Shown: positions 1,109 through 52,384 of the stretch, one piece after another
How the letters are laid out: each line of letters opens with the position of its first letter
Position numbering within the stretch: position 1 is the first letter of the stretch
DNA from: Candidatus Rifleibacteriota bacterium
GTDB taxonomy: Bacteria > Muiribacteriota > Ozemobacteria > Ozemobacterales > Ozemobacteraceae
Assembly (NCBI GenBank): GCA_012517355.1
Contig: JAAYVD010000081.1
Location: 1-64,000, forward strand
Direction of reading: 5' to 3'
Length of the DNA stretch: 64,000 nucleotides
Notes under the pieces: generated by a model
The model's input: the letters and a program-made list of their open reading frames with translations, nothing else
Told to the model about the DNA's origin: nothing
Database searches by the model: none
Position numbers and translations under genes: made by a program

Positions 1109-1137
1109 ATGATAGCACCCTCACCGCAAAACCGCAA
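1109..1137 (-). promoter_or_regulatory. Likely ybaB promoter
   Basis: TTGCGG, a 17-base spacer and TATCAT read on the minus strand. The -10 box is about 42 bases upstream of the ybaB start. The -35 box overlaps the last codons of the upstream giant gene, so ybaB can be transcribed separately. Confidence 0.55.
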
Positions 1138-12088: not shown

Positions 12089-13480
12089 TCAGTGCAGGTC
12101 GAGCGGAAGGGTCGGGAAGACCACCCGGGAGATGGCTTCGAAGTGCATCCCGCGGCTGGCTTTCAACAGGACGATGCTGCCGGGGGCCAGCAGGCCGGGA
12201 AGCAGTTTCGCCGCCGCGCCGGTGTCGGGGCAATGGTGGACGGCCGTGGCGGCCATTCCCCCGGCCATCGCCCCCTCGGCGAGGAAGCGGGCGTCGGTGC
12301 CGACCGCGACCAGTCCGTCGAGGCCCGCCCGGGCCACGGCTTCCCCCACCTGCCGGTGGAAGGCGGCCGACTGGTCTCCCAGTTCCTTCATGTCACCGAG
12401 GACGGCGAGGCGACGGCCGGGGCAGCCGCGCAGGAACTCCACCGCCTCGAGCATGGAGGCGGGGTTGGCGTTGTAGCAGTCGAGGATGACCCGCACCCCG
12501 CCCACCTCGTGCGATTCCATGCGGGCCCCCACCGGCTGGAAGGAGGCGAGCCGCTGCAAGCCGGTGGCGAGCGGGTGGCCGCGGGCGGCGAACATGGCCA
12601 GGGCGGCCAGGGCGTTCATGGCGTTGTGGCGGCCCAGCAGGCCCAGGGTGAGACGGCCCTCCCGGCCCTGCCAGGACACGCGGCAGGTGGTGCCGGCCGG
12701 GCCGGTCTCCAGGTCGTCGCCCCGCAGGTCGCAGCCGGGGCCGAACCCGAAGGTGACGAGGAGGGCTTTGGTGGCCTGCCGGAACACCGGCAGGAACGGG
12801 CTCTCCCCGTCGACGACGGCGAAGGAGCGGTCGGGGAGGCCCTCGAGGATCTCGGCCTTGGCCCGGGCGATGTTTTCCAGGCTGCCGAGGTTGCCGATGT
12901 GGGCCGGGCCGACGTTGGTGACGAGGGCGGCGTCGGGGCGGGCGATGCCGGCCAGGAAGCGGATCTCGCCGGCGTGGTTCATGCCCATCTCGATGATGGC
13001 GGTGCGCGCGGTGGCCGGCAGCCGCACCAGGTTGAGGGGCAGGCCGATGTGGTTGTTGAGGTTGCCTGGCGTGGCCCAGGTTTCCGACTCGCCGGCGAAC
13101 AGGTGGCGGAGCATCTCCTTGGTCGTCGTCTTGCCGTTGCTGCCGGTCACCCCCAGGAAGAAGGCCGGGTGCCGGGCGCGCTGGAAGCGGGCCAGGTCCT
13201 GCAGGGCGGCCAGCGGGTCGGCCACCTCGAGGCAGCCGCAGGTCGCCGAAGCCAGGGCCTCGGCCGGGAAGCGGCTGCCGATCAGGGTTCCGGCCTGCTT
13301 CTGGAGGGCCTGGGGCAGGAACTCGTGGCCGTCGAACCGTTCCCCGGTGATGGCGAAGAACGCCTCGCCGGGCGCGAGCGTGCGGGTGTCGATGGAAAAA
13401 CCGGCGGGGTCGCGGCGGACGGCGTTGCGCCAGGTGCCGCGGGTGCCCATCTCCAGGTCGCGGGCGGTCCAGTCAGGCAT
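12089..13480 (-). CDS. murF: UDP-MurNAc-tripeptide:D-Ala-D-Ala ligase MurF
   Basis: A 463-residue cytoplasmic Mur ligase that adds D-Ala-D-Ala to the UDP-MurNAc tripeptide using ATP. The P-loop GVTGSNGKTTTKEM, the central NHAGEIRFLAGIARPDAALVTNVGPAH region and the C-terminal DCYNANPASM motif are all present, and the length is normal. Its ATG overlaps the end of murE by 8 bases, indicating translational coupling. Confidence 0.96.
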   Translation of the reverse strand: MPDWTARDLEMGTRGTWRNAVRRDPAGFSIDTRTLAPGEAFFAITGERFDGHEFLPQALQKQAGTLIGSRFPAEALASATCGCLEVADPLAALQDLARFQRARHPAFFLGVTGSNGKTTTKEMLRHLFAGESETWATPGNLNNHIGLPLNLVRLPATARTAIIEMGMNHAGEIRFLAGIARPDAALVTNVGPAHIGNLGSLENIARAKAEILEGLPDRSFAVVDGESPFLPVFRQATKALLVTFGFGPGCDLRGDDLETGPAGTTCRVSWQGREGRLTLGLLGRHNAMNALAALAMFAARGHPLATGLQRLASFQPVGARMESHEVGGVRVILDCYNANPASMLEAVEFLRGCPGRRLAVLGDMKELGDQSAAFHRQVGEAVARAGLDGLVAVGTDARFLAEGAMAGGMAATAVHHCPDTGAAAKLLPGLLAPGSIVLLKASRGMHFEAISRVVFPTLPLDLH

Positions 13481-14960
13481 GGGTGGCGGCCTCCAGGCAG
13501 TGGCGGGCGACCTCGCGGTCGTCGAAGGGGACGGTGCGGTCGGCGAAGGTCTGGCCGGTCTCGTGCCCCTTGCCGGCGATCAGGACGAGGTCGCCGGGCC
13601 GGGCCAGGGAGAGGGCCAGTTCGATCGCCTTGTGGCGGTCGGGCTCGACGTGGACGGCGCCCTTGTCGGCGGCGGGAACGGCGGCGATGCCGGCGACGAT
13701 CTGGGCGATGATGTCTTCCGGCTGTTCCTGGCGGGGGTTGTCGGAGGTGACCACCGTCACGTCGGACAGGGTGGCGGCCAGTCGTCCCATCACCGGGCGC
13801 TTCTCGTGCGAGCGGTTGCCGCCGCAGCCGAAGACCGTGATCAGCCGGCAGCGGGCCATCGGCCGGGCGGCCCGCAGCACGTTCTCGAGGGCGGCGGGGG
13901 AATGGGCGTAATCGACGATCACGGTCAGGTCGCGGGTGTTGGGGATCGACTCGAATCGGCCGGGGACGGTTCCCACGGCGGCCAGGCCGGCGGCGACCGC
14001 CGTCCAGTCCGCGCCCACGGCGTGGCCGAGGGCGGCCGCCATCAGGGCGTTGGCCACGTTGAACCCGCCGACGAGGGGGAGCTCGAGCGGCACACGCTGG
14101 CCGAGGGCGACGAGGTCGAACGCCTGGCCGGTGGCGGTGCGGGTCAGCCGCGCCGCATGGAAATCGGCGCGGGTGTCGGTCAGGCTGAGGGTCTGGAACC
14201 GGACCCCGGCATGCCGGCAGTCCTCGACGAGGCGACGGCCGTACTCGTCGTCGACGGCGATGATGGCGGGCCGGCCCCGGGGCAGCAGGTCGAGGAACAG
14301 GCGCCGTTTCGCCTGGAAGTAGTCCTCCATGGTCGGGTGGAACTCGGTGTGTTCGAGCGAGAGGTTGGAGAACCCGGCGGCGGCGAAGGTCAGATCCTCG
14401 ACGCGCCAGGTCTTCAGGGCGTGCGAGCTGACCTCCATGACCCCGGCGGTGACGCCCTTGTCGAGCGCCGCGGCCATCAGCGAGACCAGTTCCAGGCTTT
14501 CGGGGGTGGTGTTGCGGGCGGGCAGGCGGGAGAAGCCGAGGTCGTATTCGACGGTGCCGAACCGGAAGGCGGTGCCGAACTTCCGCGCCAGGATGGCCTG
14601 GACGAGGTAGGTGGTGGTCGTCTTGCCCTTGGTGCCGGTGATTCCCACCAGGGTGAGGCGCGAACTGGGGTCCCCGTGGAAGGCCCGGGCGATCTCGGAC
14701 AGGGCCTGGCGGGCGTCGGGCACCCGGATGGCGGGTACCGTCAGGCCGGCCAGGTCGCCCTGGGTGACCACCGCGGCCGCGCCCCGGCCGACGGCGTCGG
14801 CCAGGAAGGCGGCGCCGTCGTGGGTCTGGCCGGGCATGGCGACGAACAGGCAGCCGGGGCCCGCCTGGCGCGAGTCGTAAACCACGCTCTGGATCGGGGT
14901 GTCCTGGTTGCCGATGGTGGCGAGCACGGAACGCGGGTGGAGGTGGCGGAGGGAAGGCAT
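13473..14960 (-). CDS. murE: UDP-MurNAc-L-Ala-D-Glu:meso-diaminopimelate ligase MurE
   Basis: About 495 residues. It adds the third amino acid of the wall peptide in the cytoplasm. GITGTKGKTTTTYL is the ATP-binding loop. DNPRQEQPEDI matches the DNPR signature of diaminopimelate-adding MurE, so a meso-DAP wall is inferred. I chose the ATG at 14960 (MPSLRHL); a TTG four codons upstream at 14972 is possible, but neither has a strong ribosome-binding site. It overlaps murF by 8 bases and lies 75 bases after ftsI. Confidence 0.95.
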   Translation of the reverse strand: MPSLRHLHPRSVLATIGNQDTPIQSVVYDSRQAGPGCLFVAMPGQTHDGAAFLADAVGRGAAAVVTQGDLAGLTVPAIRVPDARQALSEIARAFHGDPSSRLTLVGITGTKGKTTTTYLVQAILARKFGTAFRFGTVEYDLGFSRLPARNTTPESLELVSLMAAALDKGVTAGVMEVSSHALKTWRVEDLTFAAAGFSNLSLEHTEFHPTMEDYFQAKRRLFLDLLPRGRPAIIAVDDEYGRRLVEDCRHAGVRFQTLSLTDTRADFHAARLTRTATGQAFDLVALGQRVPLELPLVGGFNVANALMAAALGHAVGADWTAVAAGLAAVGTVPGRFESIPNTRDLTVIVDYAHSPAALENVLRAARPMARCRLITVFGCGGNRSHEKRPVMGRLAATLSDVTVVTSDNPRQEQPEDIIAQIVAGIAAVPAADKGAVHVEPDRHKAIELALSLARPGDLVLIAGKGHETGQTFADRTVPFDDREVARHCLEAATHA

Positions 14961-15035
14961 CGGTTCATCCAAGGAAGGTGGAATGGCCGCCCGGACGGGA
15001 AGCCGGGGGGGGCGAAAAGCGCGGTGGGGGCCGGG

Positions 15036-17177
15036 TCATGGGATGGTGCCGGTGGGCTGGGGGGAGAACCGGATCACCAGGTGGTCGCAACCGGCCAGGG
15101 GGGTGCCGGGGGGGGGCGTCTGGCCGATCGCCAGGCCGCTTCCCTCGAACTGGCCTTTCAGGCCGAGGCGTTTCAGGCCGGCGGCCACGTCGCGCAGGGT
15201 CATGCCCCGGAAATCGGGAAGGGTCGGCCCGGCGGCGGCCGGGGGGCCGTTCCAGGCGGGGGCGACCGGCCCGGAGGCCGGGGTGGATCCGGTGGGGGTT
15301 GCGGAGCTGGCGGGGCGGGCCCCGGGCGCCGGGGCGACGGCAGACGGGGTCGGGGTCGGCGTGTCGGCGGCGTTGGCGACGGGGAGGGCGGAAGCGGCCA
15401 CCAGGTTGAGGAACGAGACCTCGCGGGCGGGGCTTCCCGTCTCACCCGAGGCCGCCATGGCCGCCGGTCCCTGGCCGGAGTGCTTGTCGGGCGGAACCTT
15501 GAGATACTTGAGGATCCGGTCGAGGATGCGGGCGAAATAGGGGGCGGCGACCTTGCCCCCGAACAGGGTGCGGTCGTCGCCCCTGGGTTCGTTGGCGGCC
15601 ACGAACAGCACGATGCGGGGTTCGTTCACCGGGGCCAGGCCGATGAAGGAGGTGTTGACCTTGTCCCAGAAATACCCTCCCTTGGGGTTGGCCTTCTGGG
15701 CGGTGCTGGTCTTGCCGCCCACGGTGTACTCCTGGAGGGCGGCCAGGCTGCCGGTGCCGCCCTCGACCACGCCCATCAGCATGCGGCGCAGGCGGTAGGC
15801 GACGGCGGGCGGGAAGACCCGGCGGATGGGCTGGGGCTGGGGTTCGTCCTTGATGTCGCCGGCGTGCGAGACGAGCTTCTTGACCAGGCGGGGCTGCATC
15901 AGCCAGCCGCCGTTGGCGATGGCGGAGTAGGCGCGGGCCAGCTGCAACCCGGTGACGGCGATTTCCTGGCCGATGCACAGCGAGGCGGCCGAGAACCCCG
16001 ACCACCTCGAGGGGGGCAGGAAGATGCCGGAACTTTCGGCCGGCACCTCGAGGCCGGTGGGTTCGCCGAACCCGAGGTTCTTGTACATCCGGTACAGGTC
16101 CTGGGGTTCGATCATCTGCGACAACTGGACCATCGTCGCGTTGCAGGATTCGGCGATGGCCTTGTCCATGTCGACCAGGCCGTGGGCCCCGTGGCACTTG
16201 ACGCGGCGGGTCCCGATCTCGCCGAAGCCACGGCAGTAGAAACGGGTGTCGCTGCGGACCTTCCCTTCCATCAGGGCGACCGCGGTGGGGAAGATCTTCA
16301 TGCAGGAACCCGGCTCGAAGATATCGACGGCGGGGCGGTTGCGGTGACTGTCGGGGGGCGATTCCGCGAACTGGTTCAGGTCGTAGGTGGGCAGGCAGGC
16401 CAGGCCCAGGATCTCGCCGGTGGCGGGGTCCATGGCGATCGCGGTGGCGTCGATCGGCTGGTATTTCTCGACCATCGCCGCCAGCTCGGTCTCGAGGATG
16501 TGCTGGATGAAGGAATCGATGGTCAGGACCATGTTGTTGCCCCCCATCGGCGGCTGCACGATGCGCATGCGGGCGGGCCCGTCCTCGCCGTAGCTGACGT
16601 CCTCCTGGACCGCGAGGCCGGCGTAGCCGCGCAGGGTCTTGTCGAAGGACAGTTCCAACCCCTCCAGGCCGTGGCCGTCGGTGCCGCAGAACCCGATCAG
16701 GTTGGCGGCCAGCGAGTTCTGGGGGTAGAACCGGCGATAGTTCTCCTCGAGGCTGACCCCGGGGAGGTTGAGGGCCATGACCTTCTGGGCCAGGCCCCGT
16801 TCCAGCTTCTGGATGATGGGGATGTAGCCCTTGCGATTGGCGACCTTCTCCAGGATCTGCGCCCGGGACATGGGCAGCACCGTGGACAGCAGGTTGGCGG
16901 TCTCGCCCATGTTCTTCACCTCGCGGGTGAACACGAAGACCGAGTAGGTTTCCACCGAGATGGCCAGTTCGAGGCCATTGCGGTCGGTGATGGTGCCGCG
17001 CTTCATTTCGAGGGTGCGCTGGGACTGGTGGTTGCGCTCGGAGCGCCGGATCCACTGCTCGTATTGGAAGACCTGCAATTGGACGAGCCGGCCCATGTAG
17101 AGCACGAGGAGGGTGGCCATGGCCCCGAACAGGACCAGGGTGCGGACGGCGCGCGGGCGGAGGACGACGGGTTTCAC
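15036..17177 (-). CDS. ftsI: Septal peptidoglycan transpeptidase FtsI (class B PBP) with PASTA domain
   Basis: 713 residues. It is a bitopic membrane protein that crosslinks septal peptidoglycan. There is one TM segment at about 13-32, a PBP dimer domain (about 55-200) and a transpeptidase domain with Ser291-x-x-Lys294 (EPGSCMK), Ser344-x-Asn346 (ESCNAT) and Lys489-Thr-Ser (GGKTSTAQ). An Ala/Pro/Thr linker of about 80 residues leads to one C-terminal PASTA domain (PDFRGMTLRDVAAGLKRLGL). A PASTA domain here is more usual in SpoVD/Pbp2x-type proteins than in proteobacterial FtsI. The start codon is GTG, overlapping the rsmH stop as GTGA. Confidence 0.95.
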   Translation of the reverse strand: MKPVVLRPRAVRTLVLFGAMATLLVLYMGRLVQLQVFQYEQWIRRSERNHQSQRTLEMKRGTITDRNGLELAISVETYSVFVFTREVKNMGETANLLSTVLPMSRAQILEKVANRKGYIPIIQKLERGLAQKVMALNLPGVSLEENYRRFYPQNSLAANLIGFCGTDGHGLEGLELSFDKTLRGYAGLAVQEDVSYGEDGPARMRIVQPPMGGNNMVLTIDSFIQHILETELAAMVEKYQPIDATAIAMDPATGEILGLACLPTYDLNQFAESPPDSHRNRPAVDIFEPGSCMKIFPTAVALMEGKVRSDTRFYCRGFGEIGTRRVKCHGAHGLVDMDKAIAESCNATMVQLSQMIEPQDLYRMYKNLGFGEPTGLEVPAESSGIFLPPSRWSGFSAASLCIGQEIAVTGLQLARAYSAIANGGWLMQPRLVKKLVSHAGDIKDEPQPQPIRRVFPPAVAYRLRRMLMGVVEGGTGSLAALQEYTVGGKTSTAQKANPKGGYFWDKVNTSFIGLAPVNEPRIVLFVAANEPRGDDRTLFGGKVAAPYFARILDRILKYLKVPPDKHSGQGPAAMAASGETGSPAREVSFLNLVAASALPVANAADTPTPTPSAVAPAPGARPASSATPTGSTPASGPVAPAWNGPPAAAGPTLPDFRGMTLRDVAAGLKRLGLKGQFEGSGLAIGQTPPPGTPLAGCDHLVIRFSPQPTGTIP

Positions 17178-18142
17178 GGCCGGCTTTCTCCCGGGGCGAG
17201 GCGGCGGGCCGCGCGCAGCTTGGCGGAGCGGGCCCGCGGATTGGCGACGATCTCGGCGTCGTCGGCGACGACCGGCTTGCGGGTGAGGATCTCGAGGAGC
17301 GGCCGCTGGCCGCAGGTGCAGACGGGGAACTGCGGGGGACAGCGGCAGCCGCGGGCGGCGGCGGCGAAGGCGGTCTTGACCAGGCGGTCCTCGAGGGAAT
17401 GGAAGGAGATCACCGCGAGGCGGCCGTGGGGCGCCAGGCGTCCGATGGCGGCCGAGAGGGTGGCCTCCAGTTCCCCGAGTTCGTCATTGACGGCGATGCG
17501 CAGGGCCTGGAACACCCGGGTGGCCGGGTGGACCCGGGAGGTGGCGCGCAGGGCGGCGGGGACCGCCCCTTCGACGACGGCGGCCAGGTCGGCGGTGGTG
17601 GCGAAGGGGGCCGACTCGCGGCGGCGGGCGATGGCCCGGGCGATGCGGCGGGAGAACCGTTCCTCGCCCAGTTCCCCGAACAGGCGGACCAGGTCGCCTT
17701 CGGGCCGGGTGTTCACCAGGTCGGCTGCCGTCTCGCCGCCCAGGGAGCGGTCCATGCGCATGTCGAGGGGGCCGGGGCGGGAAAAGGCGAACCCGCGTTC
17801 CGGTTCCCCGAGCTGGTATGAGGAGACGCCCAGGTCGAGGAGGATGCCGTCGACGGTGGAGACGCCCAGCCGGTCGAGAACCTCGGGCAGGCGGGAAAAC
17901 CGCTCGTGGACGAGGGTGATGCGGGGGTCGAGCGGCTCGCGGCGCGACCATTCGAGGATCTCGCCGTCGCGGTCGAGGCCGATGACCTGCCGGATGCCGG
18001 GGTGGCGGGCGAGGAGGGCGCGGGTATGGCCGCCCAGACCGAAGGTGCCATCGACGAAGATCCGGCCGTCGGGAGGAAACCCGTGGGCGAGGAACGGTTC
18101 CACGAGGACCGGGAGATGGCGGGGGTCGGTGGGGACGGTCAT
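17174..18142 (-). CDS. rsmH: 16S rRNA m4C1402 methyltransferase RsmH (MraW)
   Basis: 322 residues. It N4-methylates C1402 of 16S rRNA using S-adenosylmethionine. It starts HLPVLVEPFL and has the SAM-binding region FVDGTFGLGGHTRALL, the conserved GILLDLGVSSYQL and FSRPGPLDMRMD stretches, and AVISFHSLEDRLVK near the end. The ATG at 18142 overlaps the ftsL stop as ATGA with GAGGAA just upstream. It lies downstream of ftsL, the reverse of the usual order. Confidence 0.97.
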   Translation of the reverse strand: MTVPTDPRHLPVLVEPFLAHGFPPDGRIFVDGTFGLGGHTRALLARHPGIRQVIGLDRDGEILEWSRREPLDPRITLVHERFSRLPEVLDRLGVSTVDGILLDLGVSSYQLGEPERGFAFSRPGPLDMRMDRSLGGETAADLVNTRPEGDLVRLFGELGEERFSRRIARAIARRRESAPFATTADLAAVVEGAVPAALRATSRVHPATRVFQALRIAVNDELGELEATLSAAIGRLAPHGRLAVISFHSLEDRLVKTAFAAAARGCRCPPQFPVCTCGQRPLLEILTRKPVVADDAEIVANPRARSAKLRAARRLAPGESRP

Positions 18143-18519
18143 TTCCTCAGGAAGATGTCGGGCATGGGCAGGTAGCACAGTTTCTGGGGCACGACCATGC
18201 CCAGTTCGGAGCGTGCCACCTTCTCGATGCGCGACAGGGACTGGAGTTTCGAGATCTCGGCCCGCAGCACGTCGTTGTTGGTTTCGAGGGATTCGATCGA
18301 CCGGGACATCCCGGCCAGGCGGAACTTGACCTCGACCATCTTGGTCGACTGCCAGACGTAGACGGTGAACATCATGCTCAGCAGCAGGATGGCGGTCAGA
18401 TACAGGCGGACGAGGCGCCGACGGTTGGCGGTCTGGCTGCCGGGGCCCTCGGGGCGGGCGGGGTGCCGGGGCGGCGGCTCGCGCGGGGTGGCGAACTCGA
18501 GATTCCGGGGGCGTCGCAT
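18139..18519 (-). CDS. ftsL: Cell-division protein FtsL
   Basis: About 126 residues. This is a bitopic divisome protein that works with FtsB/DivIC. A basic, Pro-rich cytoplasmic tail leads to one TM segment (LVRLYLTAILLLSMMFTVYVW, about 36-56). An extracytoplasmic coiled coil follows (ESLETNNDVLRAEISKLQSLSRIEKVAR), then the typical SELGMVVP. I prefer the ATG at 18519; a TTG at 18528 is closer to AAGGAAG and is possible. It is the first gene of the cluster, upstream of rsmH. No mraZ was found before it. Confidence 0.88.
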   Translation of the reverse strand: MRRPRNLEFATPREPPPRHPARPEGPGSQTANRRRLVRLYLTAILLLSMMFTVYVWQSTKMVEVKFRLAGMSRSIESLETNNDVLRAEISKLQSLSRIEKVARSELGMVVPQKLCYLPMPDIFLRK

Positions 18520-24256: not shown

Positions 24257-26533
24257 TTGGCAGGTGGAAGCGATCTCCGGAGCCGCGGGCTGTGGCTCCT
24301 GAAACCCTGTACGAGGCGGCTCATCGGCTTCCTCGGGAACCAGGATGCCCACATCCGCGGCGAGGGGGCCAAGGCCCTCGGGCACATCGGTGATCCCGAG
24401 GCGGTGGCCCCCCTCATCGAAGCGCTGATGAAGGAAAAGCAGGACGAGCAGGTACCGCTCGCCCTGGCCGAAATGGGCGATCCCGCCGCCCTGGCCCCGC
24501 TGATCGAGGCGTTCAACCAGGCTGACCGCGAGGTACGGCCCAACATCTGCGCGGCCCTGGGGTCGTTCAAGAATCCCAAGGCGGTGGCCTGCCTGATCAC
24601 CGGCCTGGCCGACCCGGACCCCAACGTGCGGTTCCACAGCATCGCCGCGCTGGGCCAACAGCGCGATCCGGCGGGGGTCTCCCACCTGCTCGGCTGCCTG
24701 GGCGAGTCCAACGAGTGGATCTTCCTGTCGGTGGTGGAAGCCCTGTCGCGCATCGGCGACCATCGGGCCACCAACCCCTTTGTCGCCTTCTACCTGAAGG
24801 AGGGCAACGAACGCAAGCGGGCGGCCATCATCACCGCCCTGGGCTTCCTGAAAGACCTGACCTCGGTGCCGACCCTGACCAAGGCCCTGCGCGACGCCGA
24901 CGACCGCGTCAAGGCGAATGCCATCGAGAGCCTGCGCCGGCTCGACCTGCCCAGGGACAAGATCCTGAACCTGATCCAGCCTTTCCTCAAGCATCCCAAC
25001 AACCGCGTCCGGGGCAACACCATCGTGACGGTGGCCGACCTGAAACTGGTCGACCTGAAGCCCATCATCGAGCCGATGCGGGACGACCCCGACAAGTGGG
25101 TCCGGGCCACGTTGGGATACGTGCTGTCCACCATCGAGTACCCGCAGGCGCTGTCGCTGATCGTCGAACTGCTGAAGGACGAGGACGGCGACGTGAAGAA
25201 GAATGCCGCGCGGGCCCTGGCGGCGCGGGCGACCGACCGCCAGACCGACGTGCTGATCGGCCTGCTGGACGACCCGACCCCGTTCGTGCGGCTCCAGGCG
25301 GTGCAGACGCTCGGCAAGATCCGGGCGGTGGCGGCGGTGACCACCCTGGGCCGCATCTTCGAGACGGAGCGGAACTTCAAGATCCGGTCGGCCATCATCA
25401 CGACCCTCGGGATGATCGGCGACCAGGCGGCGGTGCCGTTGCTGCAGGGCGCGCTGAAGGACCGCGACTCGCGGGTGCGCGCCAACGCCGTCGAGTCGCT
25501 GGAATCGATCCTGGGCGAGGCGGCCGGCCTGATGCTGCGGCCCCTGCTCGCCGACCCGGACAACCGGACCCGGTCGAACACCGCCAAGGCCCTGTTCCGC
25601 ATCGGCGACGTGGGGGTGCTGGGCGACCTCGAAAAGATGCTCCAGGACAAGGAAGGCGGCACCCGGATCTCGGCCGCCTATGCCCTGGGACAGATCGGCC
25701 TGGCGTTGAAGGAACTCGAGGTCTCGCCCCTGCTTCAGCCCCTCAAGTCGTCGCTGACCGCGGTCAAGGTGCAGACCCCGACGATGCCGGCGGCCGGGAA
25801 GGTCGCGACACCGGGCGTGGGCACTGCGACGCCCGCCGGCGCTGCCGCCGAGGGGCGGAAACCGGCCGGCAAGGAAGCCATGCGCGAAGCCTTTCTCGCC
25901 CATTACAATGCCGGGCGGTTCAAGGAGGCCCTCGACGGGGCAACGGCCTACGTGACCCAGTTCCCCTTCGACCTGATGGCCAACTTCTTTCTGGGCAACC
26001 TGAACTTCCAGTTGAGCCGGTTCGAGGCCGCCATCGACGCGTTCAAGAAGGTGGTGGAGATGGACCCGTTCCATGTCCAGGCCTACAGCAACATGGGCAT
26101 CGCCTGCTTCCGGACCGGCCGGATGCAGGAGGCGGTCCACTACTTCAAGCAGGCGCTGAAGATCCAGCCCGACCTGTCCGCCATCCGGTTCAACCTGGCC
26201 AACCTGCTGCTGAAGGAAAGCAAGTGGGAGGAGGCCATCGCCCAGTATGAAGAGGGACGCCGGTACCAGAAGGCCCCCGCCCGTGTCCTGGCCAACCTGG
26301 GGTTCGCCTACCAGAAGACCGGGCAGTACGAGAAGGCGGTGACCAGCTACGAATCGTCGGTGGCCGCCGACCCCCGTGACCCCGGGGTCTACTACAACTG
26401 GGCGCTCATCCTGATCCGGCAGGGCCGGAAGGACCAGGCGGTGGACGTCGTCCAGTCCGCGTTGCAGGCGGTCCCTCCCGGAGCCGCCGGCCTGAAGTCC
26501 CTGCGGGAACTGCTGGAACGTCTGCAGGCGTGA
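24257..26533 (+). CDS. HEAT-repeat and TPR protein
   Basis: 758 residues with no signal peptide or TM segment, so probably cytoplasmic. Residues of about 20-490 contain a long series of HEAT/PBS-lyase-like repeats (IRGEGAKALGHIGDPEAVAPLIEAL and variants). An Ala/Pro/Thr linker (about 495-535) leads to about six TPRs (AYSNMGIACFRTGRMQEAVHYFKQAL). Such proteins are scaffolds for protein interaction; no enzyme motif is seen. The start is TTG at 24257, chosen because GGGAGG is 9 bases upstream. A weak promoter-like TTCGGG-17-GATAGT lies at 24209-24237. It ends 31 bases before the first cyclase, so it may assist that signalling system. Confidence 0.88.
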   Translation: MAGGSDLRSRGLWLLKPCTRRLIGFLGNQDAHIRGEGAKALGHIGDPEAVAPLIEALMKEKQDEQVPLALAEMGDPAALAPLIEAFNQADREVRPNICAALGSFKNPKAVACLITGLADPDPNVRFHSIAALGQQRDPAGVSHLLGCLGESNEWIFLSVVEALSRIGDHRATNPFVAFYLKEGNERKRAAIITALGFLKDLTSVPTLTKALRDADDRVKANAIESLRRLDLPRDKILNLIQPFLKHPNNRVRGNTIVTVADLKLVDLKPIIEPMRDDPDKWVRATLGYVLSTIEYPQALSLIVELLKDEDGDVKKNAARALAARATDRQTDVLIGLLDDPTPFVRLQAVQTLGKIRAVAAVTTLGRIFETERNFKIRSAIITTLGMIGDQAAVPLLQGALKDRDSRVRANAVESLESILGEAAGLMLRPLLADPDNRTRSNTAKALFRIGDVGVLGDLEKMLQDKEGGTRISAAYALGQIGLALKELEVSPLLQPLKSSLTAVKVQTPTMPAAGKVATPGVGTATPAGAAAEGRKPAGKEAMREAFLAHYNAGRFKEALDGATAYVTQFPFDLMANFFLGNLNFQLSRFEAAIDAFKKVVEMDPFHVQAYSNMGIACFRTGRMQEAVHYFKQALKIQPDLSAIRFNLANLLLKESKWEEAIAQYEEGRRYQKAPARVLANLGFAYQKTGQYEKAVTSYESSVAADPRDPGVYYNWALILIRQGRKDQAVDVVQSALQAVPPGAAGLKSLRELLERLQA

Positions 26534-26564: not shown

Positions 26565-29531
26565 ATGACCCCTGCGGCCGCCTCTCGTGATCCGGAGCGC
26601 CCGCCTTCTCTGGCGGCGGGAGGATCCTGGTTCGCGCGCCTGGGCCTGTGGGTGGGGCTGTTCGTGGTCATCGTCCTGGTCCCGGGACTGGTGCTGCACG
26701 CATGGCTGGAAACCACCCGTCTGGCCCTGGAAGCCGCCGGTGGGGAGCAGGACCGCCGGCGGGTGGACAGCCTCCTGAGCGCCTTCGACCAGGCGTTGAC
26801 GCCGGCGGGGCAGATCCAGACCTTCCTGGAACGGTTCGGCCGCGCCCGGCTCCGGCGGGTTCCCACTCCGACCCGGGCGGCGCGGTGGGAGGGGTTCCTG
26901 CGGCAGGAATGCCGTTGGCCGGCGGCGACCCGGCTGTTCTGGTTCGACGGGGCCGGCCGCCCGGTCGTGCCGCGCGGCTCCACCCCGCCGGCCGGGCAGA
27001 GGATGTGGCAGACGTTGTTTTCGAGCCTGGGTGGCTCCCGGCCCCTGACACCGAGGGAAGCCGCCGATCAGGCCCGGTTGCTGCGGCTGGAATTCGGCCC
27101 GTTCGCCACCCTGGAATTGCTGCAGGAAGGGAAGAGGAAGGTGGTCGAGGTCCTGCATCGCGGGGCCCAGTCCTACCTCCGGGTCCTGCTGTGCGGCACG
27201 GCGGCCGGCCCCCGCGGCGGGGTCCTGGTCATCCTGCCCAAGACCGCCCTGCCGGATGACTGGCATGTGCGGGCTGCGGTCCGGCGTTTCGCCGGGCGGG
27301 GGAGGATGGTGGGGGCGCTCCGGCGGTCGACCGACCGGCAGGTCGGGCATCCGCACCTGGCCCCCGGGTTGCTGCGGGGGATGGCCCAGCGGCTGATCAC
27401 GGCCAGTTCGGGATACCGGGAGTCGGGCAGCGGCAGGCTGTGGACGGCGCGGTTCAGCCGGGCCGATGTCGATCTCATCCTGGTGGGCGGGGTCGATCAC
27501 CGGACCGGGGACTGGTGGCAGGGGGTGGAACGGATCCGGCTCCTGCAACGGGCCCTGGTCATGGGGGGCGGCCTGCTGGGCCTGGTGTTCCTGGGCCTGG
27601 GAGGAGGCTGGTGGCGGTTCGATCCCGGCCTGAGCTACAAGTTCCTGCTGGGGGTCTTTTTGCTGACCGTCCTGCCCCTCGGATCGACGGTCACGGTCGG
27701 AGTGCAGCGGCTGGTGCAGGTCCGCCAGGCCCAGACGGCGTTTCTGGATGGGGCTCTGGAGCGGCCGCTCGAAGATCTCGAACAGGCGGTGTCCAATGGC
27801 TACGGGGAACTGGAAGCCCGGTTGCAGAAGTTTTTCGAAACCCCAGAAACCCGTTTCCCTGGAGCCTCCGAGCGTTTCGATGCGCTGTCGGCGCGCTGGC
27901 GCGACTGGGGGGTCATCTGGGTGGTGGCGGTGCCGTCCCTGGAGGCGGGGGGGGGGCCTGGCTACCAGACGTTCTTCGGAGCCCCCATCAGCCGCAAGAG
28001 CCAGGAATTCTTCAATTCCCTGACCCTGTCCCTCCTCGAGGCCATCCGGTTCCGGGTCTCCCCGCAAGCGCTGCCGGGGAAGCCCACCGCCGAGACCCAG
28101 GCGGTCATCGAATCGCTGCAGAACGACGAACCACGCCTGATGACGTTTTTCAACTGCCTGGGCCCTTTCTCGGTCGGGGGTCGGGACTGGTTCACCTTCC
28201 GGGGATTGGTGGAAGAGCCTGGGGGCGGCTGGAACGGCTATTACGGCCTGACCATCGACCAGCAGACCTGCCAGAATTTCCTGCTGCGGCGGGCTTTGCG
28301 GGCGGGCCGGGCCCCGGGCCGCGTGGTCCGGGTGGCCCGGGCGGGCGGGGTGGGCACCGGTCACCGCGTCTGGGACCGGCTCCTGAAAAGGGCCGAGCTG
28401 CGGCAAGGGCCGGTCCGGGTCCGGCTGTCCACCCATCACGGCGAGGTCGTGGGGTTGGCCCGGCCGCTGCGGATCAGGAACATCATCGGCGCGGTGATGG
28501 TGCGGGCCGACAGCGGGCCGCCCCTGGCCCTCTGGTTCTGGGGCATCCTGCTGGTGGTGGTGGCCTGGGCGGTGATGGGCATGGCCATCTACGTGCGGAT
28601 CCTGCGGATCACCCTCCTGGACCCGCTGCTGGCGCTGACCGAAGCGGTCGACCGGCTGGAGGGAGGGGATTACGGAACCCGCCTCGGGGCGGAGCAGGAG
28701 GACGAACTGGGCACCCTGGGCCGCCGGTTCAACGACCTGGTGATCGGGTTGGGCGAGAAGGTCCGCATGGGGGCCTTCCTGCGGGAAGACCTGGTGGCGC
28801 AGGCCGGCGACCAGGCGGGGGCGGTGGCCCTGCGCCGGCAGACGGGGGTGGTCTGTTTCGCCGGGGTGCGGCGCTTCTCCGACCTGGAGGCGACCTTGGC
28901 CCCAGAGATGGCGCTGGCGATCATGAGCGAGTTCCTGGGCCTTTGTGAGGAGACCATGCACCGGCACGGGGGGAAGATCGACAAGTTCATCGGGGACACC
29001 GCGATGGCCGTGTTCCTCGCCGCGCCGGCGGCAGGATCGCCGGAGGGAGAGGCCCCTGTCGATGCGGGAACCGGGCGCGGCGCGCCGCCTTCCGCGGCGG
29101 CAGAGGGGAGTGGCCACCTTCGTGGCGGTCAGTACCCGGCCGGCGGCCGTCCGGTGGAGGAGGCCGCCCTCGCGGCGGCTTCCGAACTGGCCTCCCGGCT
29201 GGAAAGCTGGCGGGCATCCTGGGGGGAGAAGGGCGTGGCGGTGGCCGGTTTCGGGATCGGCATGGCCAAGGGTCCGGTCCTGGCCGGGGGGATCGGGTCG
29301 CAACACCGGCGGCTCGATTTCACGATCATCGGGGACACGGTGAACCTGGCGGCCCGCCTGGAGAAGCTGGCCGGGACCGGCGGGCGCCCACCCATCCTGG
29401 CCTGCGACGAGGGGATGGCCGCTGACCTGGCGGGCCTGCGCAAGCTGACCGTCGACGTGGAGGAGGTCAGGGGCCGGCAGGGGAGGATCAGGGTCTTCAC
29501 TCCCGCCCGCTCCCCGGGAGGGTCGGCATGA
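26565..29531 (+). CDS. Membrane class III nucleotide cyclase homologue, C2-like (lacks the first metal Asp)
   Basis: 988 residues. TM segments lie at about 25-46, 328-348, 358-380 and 654-677, leaving two large extracytoplasmic regions (about 47-327 and 381-653). A HAMP-like linker (about 678-735) and a class III cyclase domain (about 755-985) follow. The first metal-binding Asp is missing: residues 765-771 read FAGVRRF where active enzymes have FADIRGF. The rest of the site is intact: Lys807, Asp811 (FIGDTAMAVF), Thr920, and Asn927 and Arg931 (GDTVNLAARLE). A Gly/Ala-rich insertion of about 45 residues interrupts the domain. Alone it should be inactive or weak. The stop overlaps the next gene as ATGA, and the partner has the complementary defect. 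Confidence 0.9.
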   Translation: MTPAAASRDPERPPSLAAGGSWFARLGLWVGLFVVIVLVPGLVLHAWLETTRLALEAAGGEQDRRRVDSLLSAFDQALTPAGQIQTFLERFGRARLRRVPTPTRAARWEGFLRQECRWPAATRLFWFDGAGRPVVPRGSTPPAGQRMWQTLFSSLGGSRPLTPREAADQARLLRLEFGPFATLELLQEGKRKVVEVLHRGAQSYLRVLLCGTAAGPRGGVLVILPKTALPDDWHVRAAVRRFAGRGRMVGALRRSTDRQVGHPHLAPGLLRGMAQRLITASSGYRESGSGRLWTARFSRADVDLILVGGVDHRTGDWWQGVERIRLLQRALVMGGGLLGLVFLGLGGGWWRFDPGLSYKFLLGVFLLTVLPLGSTVTVGVQRLVQVRQAQTAFLDGALERPLEDLEQAVSNGYGELEARLQKFFETPETRFPGASERFDALSARWRDWGVIWVVAVPSLEAGGGPGYQTFFGAPISRKSQEFFNSLTLSLLEAIRFRVSPQALPGKPTAETQAVIESLQNDEPRLMTFFNCLGPFSVGGRDWFTFRGLVEEPGGGWNGYYGLTIDQQTCQNFLLRRALRAGRAPGRVVRVARAGGVGTGHRVWDRLLKRAELRQGPVRVRLSTHHGEVVGLARPLRIRNIIGAVMVRADSGPPLALWFWGILLVVVAWAVMGMAIYVRILRITLLDPLLALTEAVDRLEGGDYGTRLGAEQEDELGTLGRRFNDLVIGLGEKVRMGAFLREDLVAQAGDQAGAVALRRQTGVVCFAGVRRFSDLEATLAPEMALAIMSEFLGLCEETMHRHGGKIDKFIGDTAMAVFLAAPAAGSPEGEAPVDAGTGRGAPPSAAAEGSGHLRGGQYPAGGRPVEEAALAAASELASRLESWRASWGEKGVAVAGFGIGMAKGPVLAGGIGSQHRRLDFTIIGDTVNLAARLEKLAGTGGRPPILACDEGMAADLAGLRKLTVDVEEVRGRQGRIRVFTPARSPGGSA

Positions 29532-32413
29532 GATCGGGAGAAAGGGGCGTCGTCCAGCCCGGGGCCCGGGCGTGGCAAGGGGGGCGGTTCCTGCTGGTGG
29601 GCGGGTTCGGCGTGCTCCTGGCCGGGCTGTTGTGGGCCTACGGCGCGGCCTCCCACGAAGCCGCCCTGGAGCTCGCGGAGGCGGAGGTCCGGCGGTTCCT
29701 GCCGGTCCTGCGGGACCTGGTGACCGGGCCCGGCCTCGCCGAGGGAGTGTTCCTGGAGGTCATCGATGGGATGGAGGGGCCCCTGGCCGGCTGGCAGGCG
29801 AAGGAGATGGAGACCCGCTTCCTCGACAGGGGTGGAGGGCTCGGGGCCTTCCTGGTGGCGGGACCGGACGGCCGGGAGTGGAACCAGTGGGGGTTCTCGT
29901 CGGCCACCCGGGAGGTTCTGACCCATTTCGTCCTGAAGTGGGCGGTCCGGGAGAACCTGTCTTCCCGCCTGCCCGCCCCGATCCGGAACCGCGTGGTCCG
30001 GGGCATCCTGGCGCCGGCGTGGATGGATAGAAATCCGCTGCACCGCCTGCTGGGACCCCGAGCGGATTGGACGGAGGTTTTCGAGATCGACGAGAACGGG
30101 GAACCGGGGTTCCTGCTGGTCCACCTGGTGATGCGGCCCGCCTGCCCCGATCTGACGGCGGCCAAACTCGACACGGTGATGCCCAAGCCTCGTGGCGATC
30201 CACTCTGTACCGGGATCGTGGCCGCCTTCCTCCCGCGACGCTGCCTGGACGACGGCTTCCGACGCGGGTTCCTCAACCGGTTCCGGCACCGGTCGCTGTC
30301 TGCCTGCTGGTGTGGCCCAGCCGGAGAACTCCGGCAGGCACCGCTTCCCCCGGGGGTCGGGGCCGCCGTCGAGGTCCGGGCCGGAGGGTTGGCCCAGGGC
30401 ATGGTGCGCTGGCCGGAAGGGGTGGCCGGGTACTGGTTCGATCCCCGGACGCCGGAGGACGTGGTGGTGGTCGTGCGACAGGTGGCGGGCCCCTGGCGGA
30501 CGTGGGTGCGGGCCGCCGTCTGGTGCGGCCTCCTGGGTGCTCTCGGGTTGCTGTGGCAGGGGGTCGGACTGGCCTGGAGCGGGGCGGAGGGGTGGAGCCA
30601 ACCGCTGGGGTGGAAGGTGGCGGAGTTGTTCGGCGGGGCCTCGCTGATGCCCGGCCTGGCGTTCCTTCTCATCCTGCTCACCCCCGAGCCCTGGCACCGG
30701 CAGGAAATCCCACCGACGGTCCTTCGCCTCCTGGAAAGTCGCCTCCAGGCGAGCGAGGAACAACAGTGCCGGTTCCAGAGCGACGTCTGGCAGACCATCG
30801 CTCCCGCTCAGCTCGACCGCCTCTGGCGGGATCTTGTGACCGGGCGGCAGACCGTGGCGGGCTGGATGGCAGGGACGGGGTCGGCCACCATCCAGCTGAT
30901 CTCCGTGGAGGGCCGGGACAGACCGTTCGGGACGGTTATCAGCCGCCGCGATCGGGGTGGAAAGGAACGGGGAGACCTGTTCCGGGCCATCGCCCAGACC
31001 TTTCGCGGCATGGTCGGCCTGCCCCCGATGGGCAAACGGGGGGATGCCGGCCGGATGCAGGGGGAACTGTTGCTCTCCAACCTGGGCGACATGTTCGGCC
31101 AGCAGGTCATCAACGCCTGGTTCACGGTGAGCGACCAGTTGTTCAGCCTTTCCTATTTCAACCAGCCCACCTGGAACGTCTTCCACCTGTTTCTCGACAC
31201 GCGTCGCCAGGTGGAGGGGTTCGCCCACCTCATTCCGGACCGCGTGCTGATCCAGCGGCAACCCGTCCTGAGCCAGGTGCTGGACTTCGACCCGGGCCGG
31301 GAGTTCCTGCCCCCGGTGTCCTTCGCCACCTCCCAGGTCGGACATACTTCCTTCTATCCCGAACGGGTGGCCCGTCTTCCGCTCCTGCGGCCGATCCTTC
31401 GCCGGCTGCTGAGTGAAGGGGGGAGCCAGATCCTGGTCTACTCGTACGGTGGGAAGGAATACGCCTGCCTGGCCAGGCTCCTGGACAACACCGACCACGT
31501 CGGGCTGGCCGTCCTGCCCCTGGATGGGGTGCCGGGGCCGGCGGCGGCCGGGGGGGCCTGGGGCGCGGGAATCCTGTATCCGCTGCTGGTGCTGGTGACC
31601 GTGGCGCTGCTGTTCCGGCGGTTCTACCTCGGCCCGGTGGCGGAACTGTCGGCCGGGGTCGGGGCCATCGCCGCCGGCCGTTTCGACGTCCGCCTCGCCC
31701 CGGTCACCGGTGACGAGATCGGGCGGCTGTGCCAGAGTTTCAACCGGATGGCGGAGGGGCTTCAGGAGAGGGAGTTCCTCGGCCGGTTCCTGTCGGACCT
31801 GACGCGGGAGGCGGTCAGGCAGGGCGAGGCCGCCACGGCCGTCCGGTCGCGGGCCAGCATCCTGTTCTCGGACATCCGGGGCTTCACCGGGCTGTCCGAG
31901 CGGGTGGCTCCGGAGCGCCTGGCCGCCGGCCTGAACGCGCATTTCACCGCGATGGAGACGCTCATCGAGCAGGAGGGCGGGGTGATCGACAAGTTCATCG
32001 GCGACGCCCTGATGGCGGTCTTCCTGCCCGCCCACGGCCGGGAGGATCCGGCGCGGCGGGCGGTGCGGGCCGGCCTGGCCATGGTCGAGACCGCCCGGCA
32101 GCGGCACGATCCCACGTTGCCCCTGGTGATCGGGGTCGGGGTCGGCACGGGGGAGGTGTTGATGGGAACGGTCGGTCGTCCGGACGGCCGTCGCGACTTC
32201 ACGGTGGTCGGGCCCACCGTGCGGCTGGCCGCCCTGATGGAGAAGCGCAGCAAGCAGGCCGCCGTTTCGCCGGTCATCGCCTGCCCGGCCACGCTCGAAC
32301 GGTTGGGAGGGGGCTGGCCGGGCCACCGTCTGCCCGACGTGCGGGGGGAACCCAAGGCCTATGAGATCCGCCGGCCCCGGCAGGGACGTGAGGCCCGCCC
32401 CCCTCTGTCCTGA
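29528..32413 (+). CDS. Membrane class III nucleotide cyclase homologue, C1-like (lacks transition-state Asn/Arg)
   Basis: 961 residues with the same plan as its neighbour: TM at about 20-40, 324-350, 367-386 and 679-700, two large extracytoplasmic regions, HAMP (about 700-755) and a class III cyclase domain (about 770-960). Both metal-binding Asp are present: Asp782 in FSDIRGFTG and Asp826 in FIGDALMAVF, with Lys822. The segment normally reading GDTVNLAAR is GPTVRLAAL, so the transition-state Asn and Arg are Arg899 and Leu903. This protein can supply the metals but not the other half of an active site. Its ATG overlaps the stop of the previous gene. The paralogous topology suggests an old duplication followed by division of labour. 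Confidence 0.9.
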   Translation: MRSGERGVVQPGARAWQGGRFLLVGGFGVLLAGLLWAYGAASHEAALELAEAEVRRFLPVLRDLVTGPGLAEGVFLEVIDGMEGPLAGWQAKEMETRFLDRGGGLGAFLVAGPDGREWNQWGFSSATREVLTHFVLKWAVRENLSSRLPAPIRNRVVRGILAPAWMDRNPLHRLLGPRADWTEVFEIDENGEPGFLLVHLVMRPACPDLTAAKLDTVMPKPRGDPLCTGIVAAFLPRRCLDDGFRRGFLNRFRHRSLSACWCGPAGELRQAPLPPGVGAAVEVRAGGLAQGMVRWPEGVAGYWFDPRTPEDVVVVVRQVAGPWRTWVRAAVWCGLLGALGLLWQGVGLAWSGAEGWSQPLGWKVAELFGGASLMPGLAFLLILLTPEPWHRQEIPPTVLRLLESRLQASEEQQCRFQSDVWQTIAPAQLDRLWRDLVTGRQTVAGWMAGTGSATIQLISVEGRDRPFGTVISRRDRGGKERGDLFRAIAQTFRGMVGLPPMGKRGDAGRMQGELLLSNLGDMFGQQVINAWFTVSDQLFSLSYFNQPTWNVFHLFLDTRRQVEGFAHLIPDRVLIQRQPVLSQVLDFDPGREFLPPVSFATSQVGHTSFYPERVARLPLLRPILRRLLSEGGSQILVYSYGGKEYACLARLLDNTDHVGLAVLPLDGVPGPAAAGGAWGAGILYPLLVLVTVALLFRRFYLGPVAELSAGVGAIAAGRFDVRLAPVTGDEIGRLCQSFNRMAEGLQEREFLGRFLSDLTREAVRQGEAATAVRSRASILFSDIRGFTGLSERVAPERLAAGLNAHFTAMETLIEQEGGVIDKFIGDALMAVFLPAHGREDPARRAVRAGLAMVETARQRHDPTLPLVIGVGVGTGEVLMGTVGRPDGRRDFTVVGPTVRLAALMEKRSKQAAVSPVIACPATLERLGGGWPGHRLPDVRGEPKAYEIRRPRQGREARPPLS

Positions 32414-51163: not shown

Positions 51164-52384
51164 TCAGCCGCCGAACAGGTTTCCCAGCCAGGTCTTTTTG
51201 GTGTCCTTGGCGAACTTCTTGCCGGTCAAGAACTCCATGATGCGGACCATGCCGGCGGCGTAGTCGCAGGAGGCATCCTGTTCGAAGACGGTCTTCTGGT
51301 GCTCGATCAGCTCGGAGATCTGCTTCCAGCTGTCCTTGAGGGTGAAGTCGGCCTTGCGTTTCATCGCCGTCTCGATTTCCTCGAGGGAACGTGAATACTG
51401 GGCGCCCTCGCGGTTGAGGACGAGCTTGATCTTGTCGGGCGGGTATTTCAGGTTCTCCATGACCTTCAGGCACTGGTGCATGCTCTTGATGTGGTTCATG
51501 TTGGGCAGCATCAGCAGGAAGATGGCGTCGGCCATGTCCATGGCGTTGATGGTGAGGTCCTGGAAGAAGGAGTGGGTGTCGAGGATGATGTAGTCGAAGT
51601 GCTTGCGGGCGAGCTCGACGAAGGCTCGCAGATGGCTCGAGTTGATCATTTCCGACTGCTCGGGCTTCTTGGGGGCGGCCAGCACGGAAAACCCCGATTT
51701 GTGATCGACGAGGTACTCCTTGAGCACCTCGGGCTTGTCGGTGGGGTTCTCGACGAGGTCGGCGATGGTGCGCTTGGGGTGCAGGTCGAGCATGAAGGCG
51801 AGGTCGCCGAACTGCAGGTCGAGGTCGACGAGCAGGGCCTTGGCCTGCCCCATCTTGGCGAGGCCGGCGGCCAGGTTGGCGGCGAACACGCTCTTGCCCG
51901 CCCCGCTCTTGGGGCTGAAGGCCACCACCAGTTTGCCCAGCTTGGTCTCGGCGGGGGTCTCGGGGGCCGCGGCGCGGAACCGGCTCGACAGGGCCGTCAT
52001 GATGCGGAGGGCGATGAAAGAATTGAGCCGCAGCATCATGTCGAAATCACCCTTGGCGATGACCATGACCGTGGAATCGACGGCGGTGCGCAGGGTGGCG
52101 TTGCGGGGCGCGCCGCCGACCAGGGCCATCTCGCCGAAGAAGCTGTCCTTGTCAGTATGGGAGAGGGTCTTGATCACCTTTTCGGCGTCGCCGTCCTTCT
52201 TCAGGACCTCGACCTTGCCTTCCTTGAGGAGGTAGAAGGCGTCACCGATGTCCCCTTCCTTGAACAGCACGGTGCCTTTGGGGCAGAAGCGCTCCTTGGT
52301 GACCTGGCTGACCTTGCTCAGATCGGAGTCTTCCAGTCCTTCGAACAATGCGATCTTCTTCAATATGTCGAGAATACGAATCAC
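51164..52384 (-). CDS. Cyclic-nucleotide-binding domain fused to a MinD/CpaE-type ATPase
   Basis: 406 residues. Residues 1-135 are a cyclic-nucleotide-binding domain whose phosphate-binding cassette (FFGEMALVGGAPRNATLRT) keeps the Glu and Arg that bind the cyclic phosphate. Residues of about 150-400 are a MinD-type P-loop ATPase with deviant Walker A (SPKSGAGKSVFAANLA), LLVDLDLQFGDLAFMLDL and DYIILDTHSFF; its closest style is CpaE/TadZ. cAMP or cGMP binding could control ATPase localisation. The start is GTG at 52384 because an in-frame TGA lies three codons upstream. A TATACT -10 box is at 52418-52423. Confidence 0.92.
   Translation of the reverse strand: MIRILDILKKIALFEGLEDSDLSKVSQVTKERFCPKGTVLFKEGDIGDAFYLLKEGKVEVLKKDGDAEKVIKTLSHTDKDSFFGEMALVGGAPRNATLRTAVDSTVMVIAKGDFDMMLRLNSFIALRIMTALSSRFRAAAPETPAETKLGKLVVAFSPKSGAGKSVFAANLAAGLAKMGQAKALLVDLDLQFGDLAFMLDLHPKRTIADLVENPTDKPEVLKEYLVDHKSGFSVLAAPKKPEQSEMINSSHLRAFVELARKHFDYIILDTHSFFQDLTINAMDMADAIFLLMLPNMNHIKSMHQCLKVMENLKYPPDKIKLVLNREGAQYSRSLEEIETAMKRKADFTLKDSWKQISELIEHQKTVFEQDASCDYAAGMVRIMEFLTGKKFAKDTKKTWLGNLFGG

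Follow-up and report, generated by a model that had tools for sequence, protein, structure and literature searches.

Membrane cyclase pairs with complementary half-sites in Riflebacteria as predicted bacterial counterparts of the animal C1/C2 design

The cyc1-cyc2 pair beside described cyclases

Class III nucleotide cyclases build each active site from two subunits, one contributing the metals and the other Lys, Thr or Asp, Asn and Arg, and in the known enzymes losing just one metal Asp, or the Arg, is enough to abolish activity. In the mammalian membrane adenylyl cyclases (ADCY1-9), a metal half (C1) and a Lys/Asn/Arg half (C2) lie on homologous domains, which gives one live and one dead site. 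Soluble guanylyl cyclase (alpha/beta) and the heterodimeric rhodopsin-cyclases of chytrids bring together homologous subunits from separate genes, and CyaC, CyaB and Cya2 are homodimers with six residues in each subunit and both sites complete. The membrane class III cyclase Rv1625c (Cya) of Mycobacterium tuberculosis is used to model the ancestor of the mammalian enzyme (PMC9433096, PMC9552081); it is a single complete gene whose product homodimerises, with no natural complementary partner known. A 2022 review describes fused dimeric class III cyclases as unknown in bacteria and puts the number of class III isozymes at up to 30 per strain (PMC9552081). Here we describe two overlapping genes, cyc1 and cyc2, in a 64,000-nucleotide stretch of DNA (the window) from a Candidatus Rifleibacteriota bacterium (assembly GCA_012517355.1, contig JAAYVD010000081.1), whose products, judging from their residues, very probably assemble into one receptor-linked class III adenylyl cyclase, a heterodimer in which just one site works.

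The first gene, cyc1 (26565-29531, + strand), encodes a B-type (C2-like) membrane cyclase of 988 aa whose catalytic domain lacks the first metal Asp (Me1), this position being Gly767 in the motif FAGVRRF at residue 765 (codon 28863-28865, + strand). The adenine-binding Lys807 and the second metal Asp (Me2), Asp811, are both kept (28983-28997, + strand), as are the substrate and transition-state residues Thr920, Asn927 and Arg931 (29322-29357, + strand). The second gene, cyc2 (29528-32413, + strand), encodes an A-type (C1-like) enzyme of 961 aa on the same plan, which retains both metal Asp, namely Asp782 at Me1 (31871-31873, + strand) and Asp826 at Me2 (with Lys822, 31991-32005, + strand), along with Thr892, and carries Arg899 at the Asn position and Leu903 at the Arg position (32222-32236, + strand). 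The net losses are one metal Asp in cyc1 versus Asn and Arg in cyc2; neither protein alone has all six residues or the full set that each chain of a CyaC-type homodimer carries, and the only complete combination joins the metals of cyc2 to the Lys, Thr, Asn and Arg of cyc1. A first-pass annotation of the window had named these losses and the single complete site, and its assignments hold to the residue in both proteins; the retention of Asp811 in cyc1 and of Lys822 and Thr892 in cyc2 is additional to it.

Pfam places both catalytic domains in PF00211 (28.2 bits for cyc1 and 71.1 bits for cyc2, above the curated cut-off of 21.9). AlphaFold models of the two show the class III cyclase fold, with mean predicted local distance difference test (pLDDT) scores of 80 and 87 and CyaC, CyaB and Cya2 as best PDB matches. 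Taken together, the motif alignment with solved cyclases, a check that the first-pass annotation had proposed, and these models leave us in no doubt about the fold and residue register. The catalytic domain of cyc1 also contains a low-complexity insert at about residues 825-868, modelled with pLDDT under 50, and a long insert occupies the corresponding place in the B domains of two related loci (L235 and L237).

From these residues, we infer that the two proteins heterodimerise into an active enzyme that uses ATP. In such an enzyme, cyc2 would supply the two metal Asp, and cyc1 would supply Lys807 and Thr920 for adenine recognition and Asn927 and Arg931 for the transition state, while the second, pseudo-symmetric site, formed by Gly767 of cyc1 with Arg899 and Leu903 of cyc2, would be dead. 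The product is most likely cyclic AMP (cAMP), Lys807/Thr920 matching the adenine pair of CyaC-type (class IIIb) adenylyl cyclases.

The likeness to mammalian C1/C2 that had been suggested for the pair concerns the complementary loss of half-sites, by which it is predicted to work like a mammalian-type class IIIa enzyme without being a member of that family. The mammalian enzymes have two cassettes of six transmembrane (TM) segments, a Lys/Asp pair (IIIa) and no HAMP domain, whereas the Riflebacteria proteins are built from 4-TM units with large ectodomains, HAMP and a Lys/Thr pair (IIIb-like); moreover, the window pair is bacterial, split over two genes and in reversed order. The fused Riflebacteria forms described below come closer, with the metal half first, one polypeptide and two membrane parts. 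Homologous subunits from separate genes are shared with soluble guanylyl cyclase and the chytrid rhodopsin-cyclases, the heterodimer being predicted here from sequence; however, those systems are eukaryotic, soluble guanylyl cyclase is GTP-specific, and their sensor parts are unrelated to those of the window pair. CyaC, CyaB and Cya2 share the catalytic fold and the Lys/Thr pair and are the closest solved structures, but differ in having two complete sites, and Rv1625c differs in being one complete gene where the window has two half-site genes.

Complementary pairs in the host genome and its relatives

The six catalytic residues were read for every PF00211 cyclase domain of the host genome (G000; 7.1 Mb in 184 contigs), and same-family Riflebacteria loci were then sampled (L193-L243, L285-L290, L297-L300); most of the genomes are drafts, counts depend on the loci fetched, and pairs are called from position and sequence only. 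The BipA protein of the window shares 87% identity with that of a same-genus genome, 68% with that of G037, a Riflebacteria genome, 64-62% with those of same-family genomes and 44-54% with the full-length BipA of named records from other phyla, in line with a Candidatus Riflebacteria host. The review's figure of up to 30 isozymes (PMC9552081) is greatly exceeded by the 87 class III cyclase domains of the host, which fall into three kinds. Unpaired domains of the first kind are complete and CyaC-like (DD-KT-NR). A domains keep both metal Asp and have altered Asn/Arg, never retaining both, although some retain Arg or Asn singly, and their Lys is often Arg or Gln. B domains keep Lys, Thr, Asn and Arg, while the first metal Asp is replaced by Gly, Ala, Ser, Thr, Asn, His, Glu, Gln or Arg and the second is kept or is Glu, once Gly.

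Neighbouring domains form 28 pairs in the host, and all 28 are complementary A/B. Thirteen are two-gene pairs with the metal half first (A-B), three are two-gene pairs in the order B-A (the window, C181 and C85), and twelve are fused in one open reading frame (ORF) of ~2,000-2,700 aa (C7, C8, C16, C19, C29, C79, C88, C96, C98, C151, C152 and C183). Statistics were computed on 27 pairs (54 domains), the fused C29 pair, whose B domain was missed by Pfam and recovered with a family profile, being counted separately as the 28th. The composite site of A metals with B Lys, Thr, Asn and Arg is complete in 27/27 scored pairs and the reverse site in 0/27, and the Lys/Thr pair is present in all 27 scored B domains. 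Complementarity exceeds chance: random re-pairing of the 54 domains gave at most 23/27 complementary pairs, and none of 20,000 trials reached the observed 27. The halves are also inherited together, the distances among A domains correlating with those among their partner B domains (mirror-tree r = 0.74; Mantel 0/5,000), at identities of about 40% among A and about 37% among B domains. By hydropathy, the best resolved fused proteins, among them C79 and C98, place four clear TM segments before A and four more between A and B, and a simple scan gives 6 to 9 segments in others. Matches to the cyclic-nucleotide-binding family number 24 in the same genome, one of them inside the window, so receivers for a cyclic nucleotide exist. 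Two further host loci are unusual: L031 (G000:C20:8500-19700) has three cyclase genes in a row, A-A'-B, and at L082:785 (C41) a B gene is interrupted by one in-frame stop between two stretches of one frame, either a pseudogene or an assembly error.

The sampled loci of the host's family repeat the picture, with A/B in tandem and fused pairs and all six residues in unpaired domains, so that the co-conserved pairs with complementary losses for which the first-pass annotation had advised a search are found throughout the host genome and its family. The unfiltered Riflebacteria set holds 119 distinct neighbouring same-strand pairs, of which 115 are A/B; the four exceptions are a pair truncated where the fetched sequence ends, an A-A'-B triple, a neighbour that is unrelated, and the L237 pair (L237:8611-11661, G014:C116). 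The last belongs to the window subfamily and has Gly at Me1 of B beside an A with all six residues; this half-converted pair is possibly an intermediate or a reversion. No pair with both members complete, the finding that the first-pass annotation had set against its own proposal, occurs among the 119. The sample also includes 36 A/B fusions, and a few B domains of relatives (DE or DN) have retained the first metal Asp and lost the second.

The window-type B-A subfamily is present in eight genomes (G001, G002, G005, G007, G008, G010, G014 and G017). The ortholog in G002, another species, shows identical losses (GD-KT-NR and DD-KT-RL) at about 47% and 54% identity. Family f3 (G023, G030) has B-A pairs in which most B domains lack both metal Asp, and in the sample of loci read from families f2, f4, f5, f7 and f8 every domain is complete. 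Among the matches listed, PF00211 domains number from at least 8 up to 63 per genome in family f1 and at least 9-25 in other families. In one stretch (L285 and L286, G015:C314:14000-51500), fused A-B cyclases, about six in number and each roughly 2,000 aa long, follow one another head to tail, and similar arrays are seen at G018:C22, G019:C150 and G003:C152.

Controls from other phyla lack this pattern. Among 85 cyclase domains at 80 named loci from many phyla, 83 keep both metal Asp and Asn/Arg, the only exceptions being an A-B pair, the two domains of a Riflebacteria record (L151); likewise, both metal Asp and Asn/Arg are kept in 60/60 of the best B-profile matches from 296 Spirochaetota and 193 Myxococcota genomes. 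No complementary split was therefore found outside Riflebacteria in the 80 named loci or in the best 60 matches from these 489 genomes. A scan of genome contigs with cyc1 alone gave no match, and a scan with the B alignment, which excludes near relatives, yielded one Riflebacteria record and the outgroup set. We found no report of a natural heterodimeric or fused bacterial class III cyclase in the open-access literature, subscription papers and preprints being outside the search.

Origin of the halves, receptor regions and neighbouring genes

In a tree of the host-genome domains, A forms one clade and B another, beside the complete homologs C61 and C48, the latter a complete single protein of similar length. 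The possibility that this split is an artefact of aligning the catalytic columns was examined and rejected: in a wider tree that omits the six columns, most A and most B domains still separate, with the f3 pairs inside them, save for a few B rows (C112, L300) that stray to complete domains. A and B stem from one duplication, and their trees mirror each other. In family f6, the A and B members of one pair (G026, L301:6609-8797; KD-KT-NR and DD-KS-SR) group with each other as sisters, surrounded by complete domains, which indicates, from one example, a second and independent origin of complementary pairing. When 93 pairs are concatenated and placed in one tree, gene order requires 3 changes and fusion 4, so fusion probably arose more than once or was later undone by fission.

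The receptor halves were duplicated as well. BLASTP finds no similarity between those of cyc1 and cyc2 (best E 0.24), yet the receptor halves of the two families align in register over 662 columns (hhalign probability 99.9, E 2e-32), and this end-to-end homology indicates that whole receptors were duplicated, as the first-pass annotation had claimed. Its broader proposal, a duplicated receptor that became a heterodimer, is strongly supported by these alignments and residue patterns. The family very probably traces back to a complete homodimeric receptor cyclase that was duplicated once, its two copies then losing opposite half-sites; the pair was duplicated many times as a unit, and the metal-half-first order was also fused, joining 4+4 TM helices.

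Both cyc1 and cyc2 combine a HAMP domain with Guanylate_cyc in Pfam, the HAMP (PF00672) lying at residues 683-726 of cyc1 (28611-28742, + strand, E 3.5e-8) and 701-747 of cyc2 (31628-31768, + strand, E 2.2e-12). The shared four-TM plan ascribed to them is seen in cyc1, which has four segments by hydropathy and two ectodomains, and partly in cyc2, where three segments are clear and the fourth (about 330-351) is weak. The predicted extracytoplasmic regions of cyc1, residues 45-325 (26697-27539, + strand) and 381-660 (27705-28544, + strand), come from hydropathy, and, HAMP and cyclase apart, searches with the receptor parts gave no match in Pfam or among the solved structures of the PDB. With sensor regions of its own in each subunit, two per chain, the enzyme probably integrates two inputs, which would be combined across the HAMP domains before cAMP synthesis. 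The cyc1 stop overlaps the cyc2 start in ATGA (29528-29531, + strand), read directly and as previously noted, and the two genes are likely translationally coupled.

A HEAT/TPR repeat protein (24257-26533, + strand; Pfam) ends 31 bp upstream of cyc1; the same neighbour stands upstream of the G002 ortholog pair (85% identity), and the gene is possibly a member of an operon with cyc1 and cyc2. Elsewhere in the window, a gene on the - strand (51164-52384) encodes a protein in which a MinD/ParA-like AAA domain comes after a cyclic-nucleotide-binding domain and which may act as a receiver of cAMP. A 2,750-aa protein on the - strand (1121-9373) with six Big_5 Ig-like matches is probably a surface protein, and a 1,947-aa ORF lies on the + strand (12486-18329) without a Pfam match.

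Competing readings and significance

Three observations weigh against a strictly heterodimeric enzyme with one working site. The second metal Asp survives in cyc1, as in most B domains, and weak one-metal activity may therefore exist; a B-type domain on C112 (L079:10275) has no partner within the 19 kb searched; and the complete A of the L237 pair could homodimerise.

The halves might also pair across paralogs, so that 28 A and 28 B would make up combinatorial receptors rather than 28 dedicated enzymes. This is compatible with heterodimerisation and would suit the identities shared within A and within B, all in one cell, as well as the unfused state of window-type pairs, but we consider it unlikely, given that the mirror trees, the strict adjacency, the ATGA coupling in the window and the repeated fusion favour dedicated partners. 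A heterodimer with another product, for example cyclic GMP, seems less likely still. Which nucleotide a bacterial class III cyclase uses cannot be fully predicted, and the best fold match of cyc2 is Cya2, a guanylyl cyclase; however, the Lys/Thr pair found in CyaC-type adenylyl cyclases is present in all B domains, and the 24 cyclic-nucleotide-binding domains fit cAMP without proving it.

We find it very improbable that each member is a homodimer with unusual chemistry, using one metal in B and substitutes for Asn/Arg in A. The second metal Asp often kept in B, the single Arg or Asn kept in some A and the complete L237 A could be read in this way, but such homodimers would leave the always-opposite losses within pairs and the completeness of unpaired cyclases unexplained, and would conflict with the loss of activity that follows removal of one metal Asp or the Arg in known class III enzymes. 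That both members are dead pseudo-cyclases, which only sense or regulate, is hardly credible: although every domain lacks at least one known essential residue, decay would not spare one full composite site in 27/27 pairs, with the metals invariant in A and Lys, Thr, Asn and Arg in B, and simple decay is rejected because the losses are always opposite.

Returning to dedicated heterodimers, we lean, with some reservation, towards the broader view that the phylum Riflebacteria, independently of animals and at least twice, arrived at adenylyl cyclases that are obligate heterodimers or fused pseudo-heterodimers, and that their expansion gave about 28 dedicated two-input receptors in one cell. The surviving stages, from complete single homologs through the half-converted pair, two-gene pairs and fusions to tandem fusion arrays, would then record the route inferred for the mammalian enzymes. 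The C1/C2 logic is known from mammals, and natural complementary or fused bacterial pairs are new as far as the open-access literature shows. The family also offers a set of unexplored predicted two-input receptors whose sensor regions are unlike any known family. With 87 domains, 28 pairs and 12 natural fusions in one genome and intermediates in its relatives, it amounts to a replicated natural experiment in which the evolution and the benefit of the animal C1/C2 design become directly testable.
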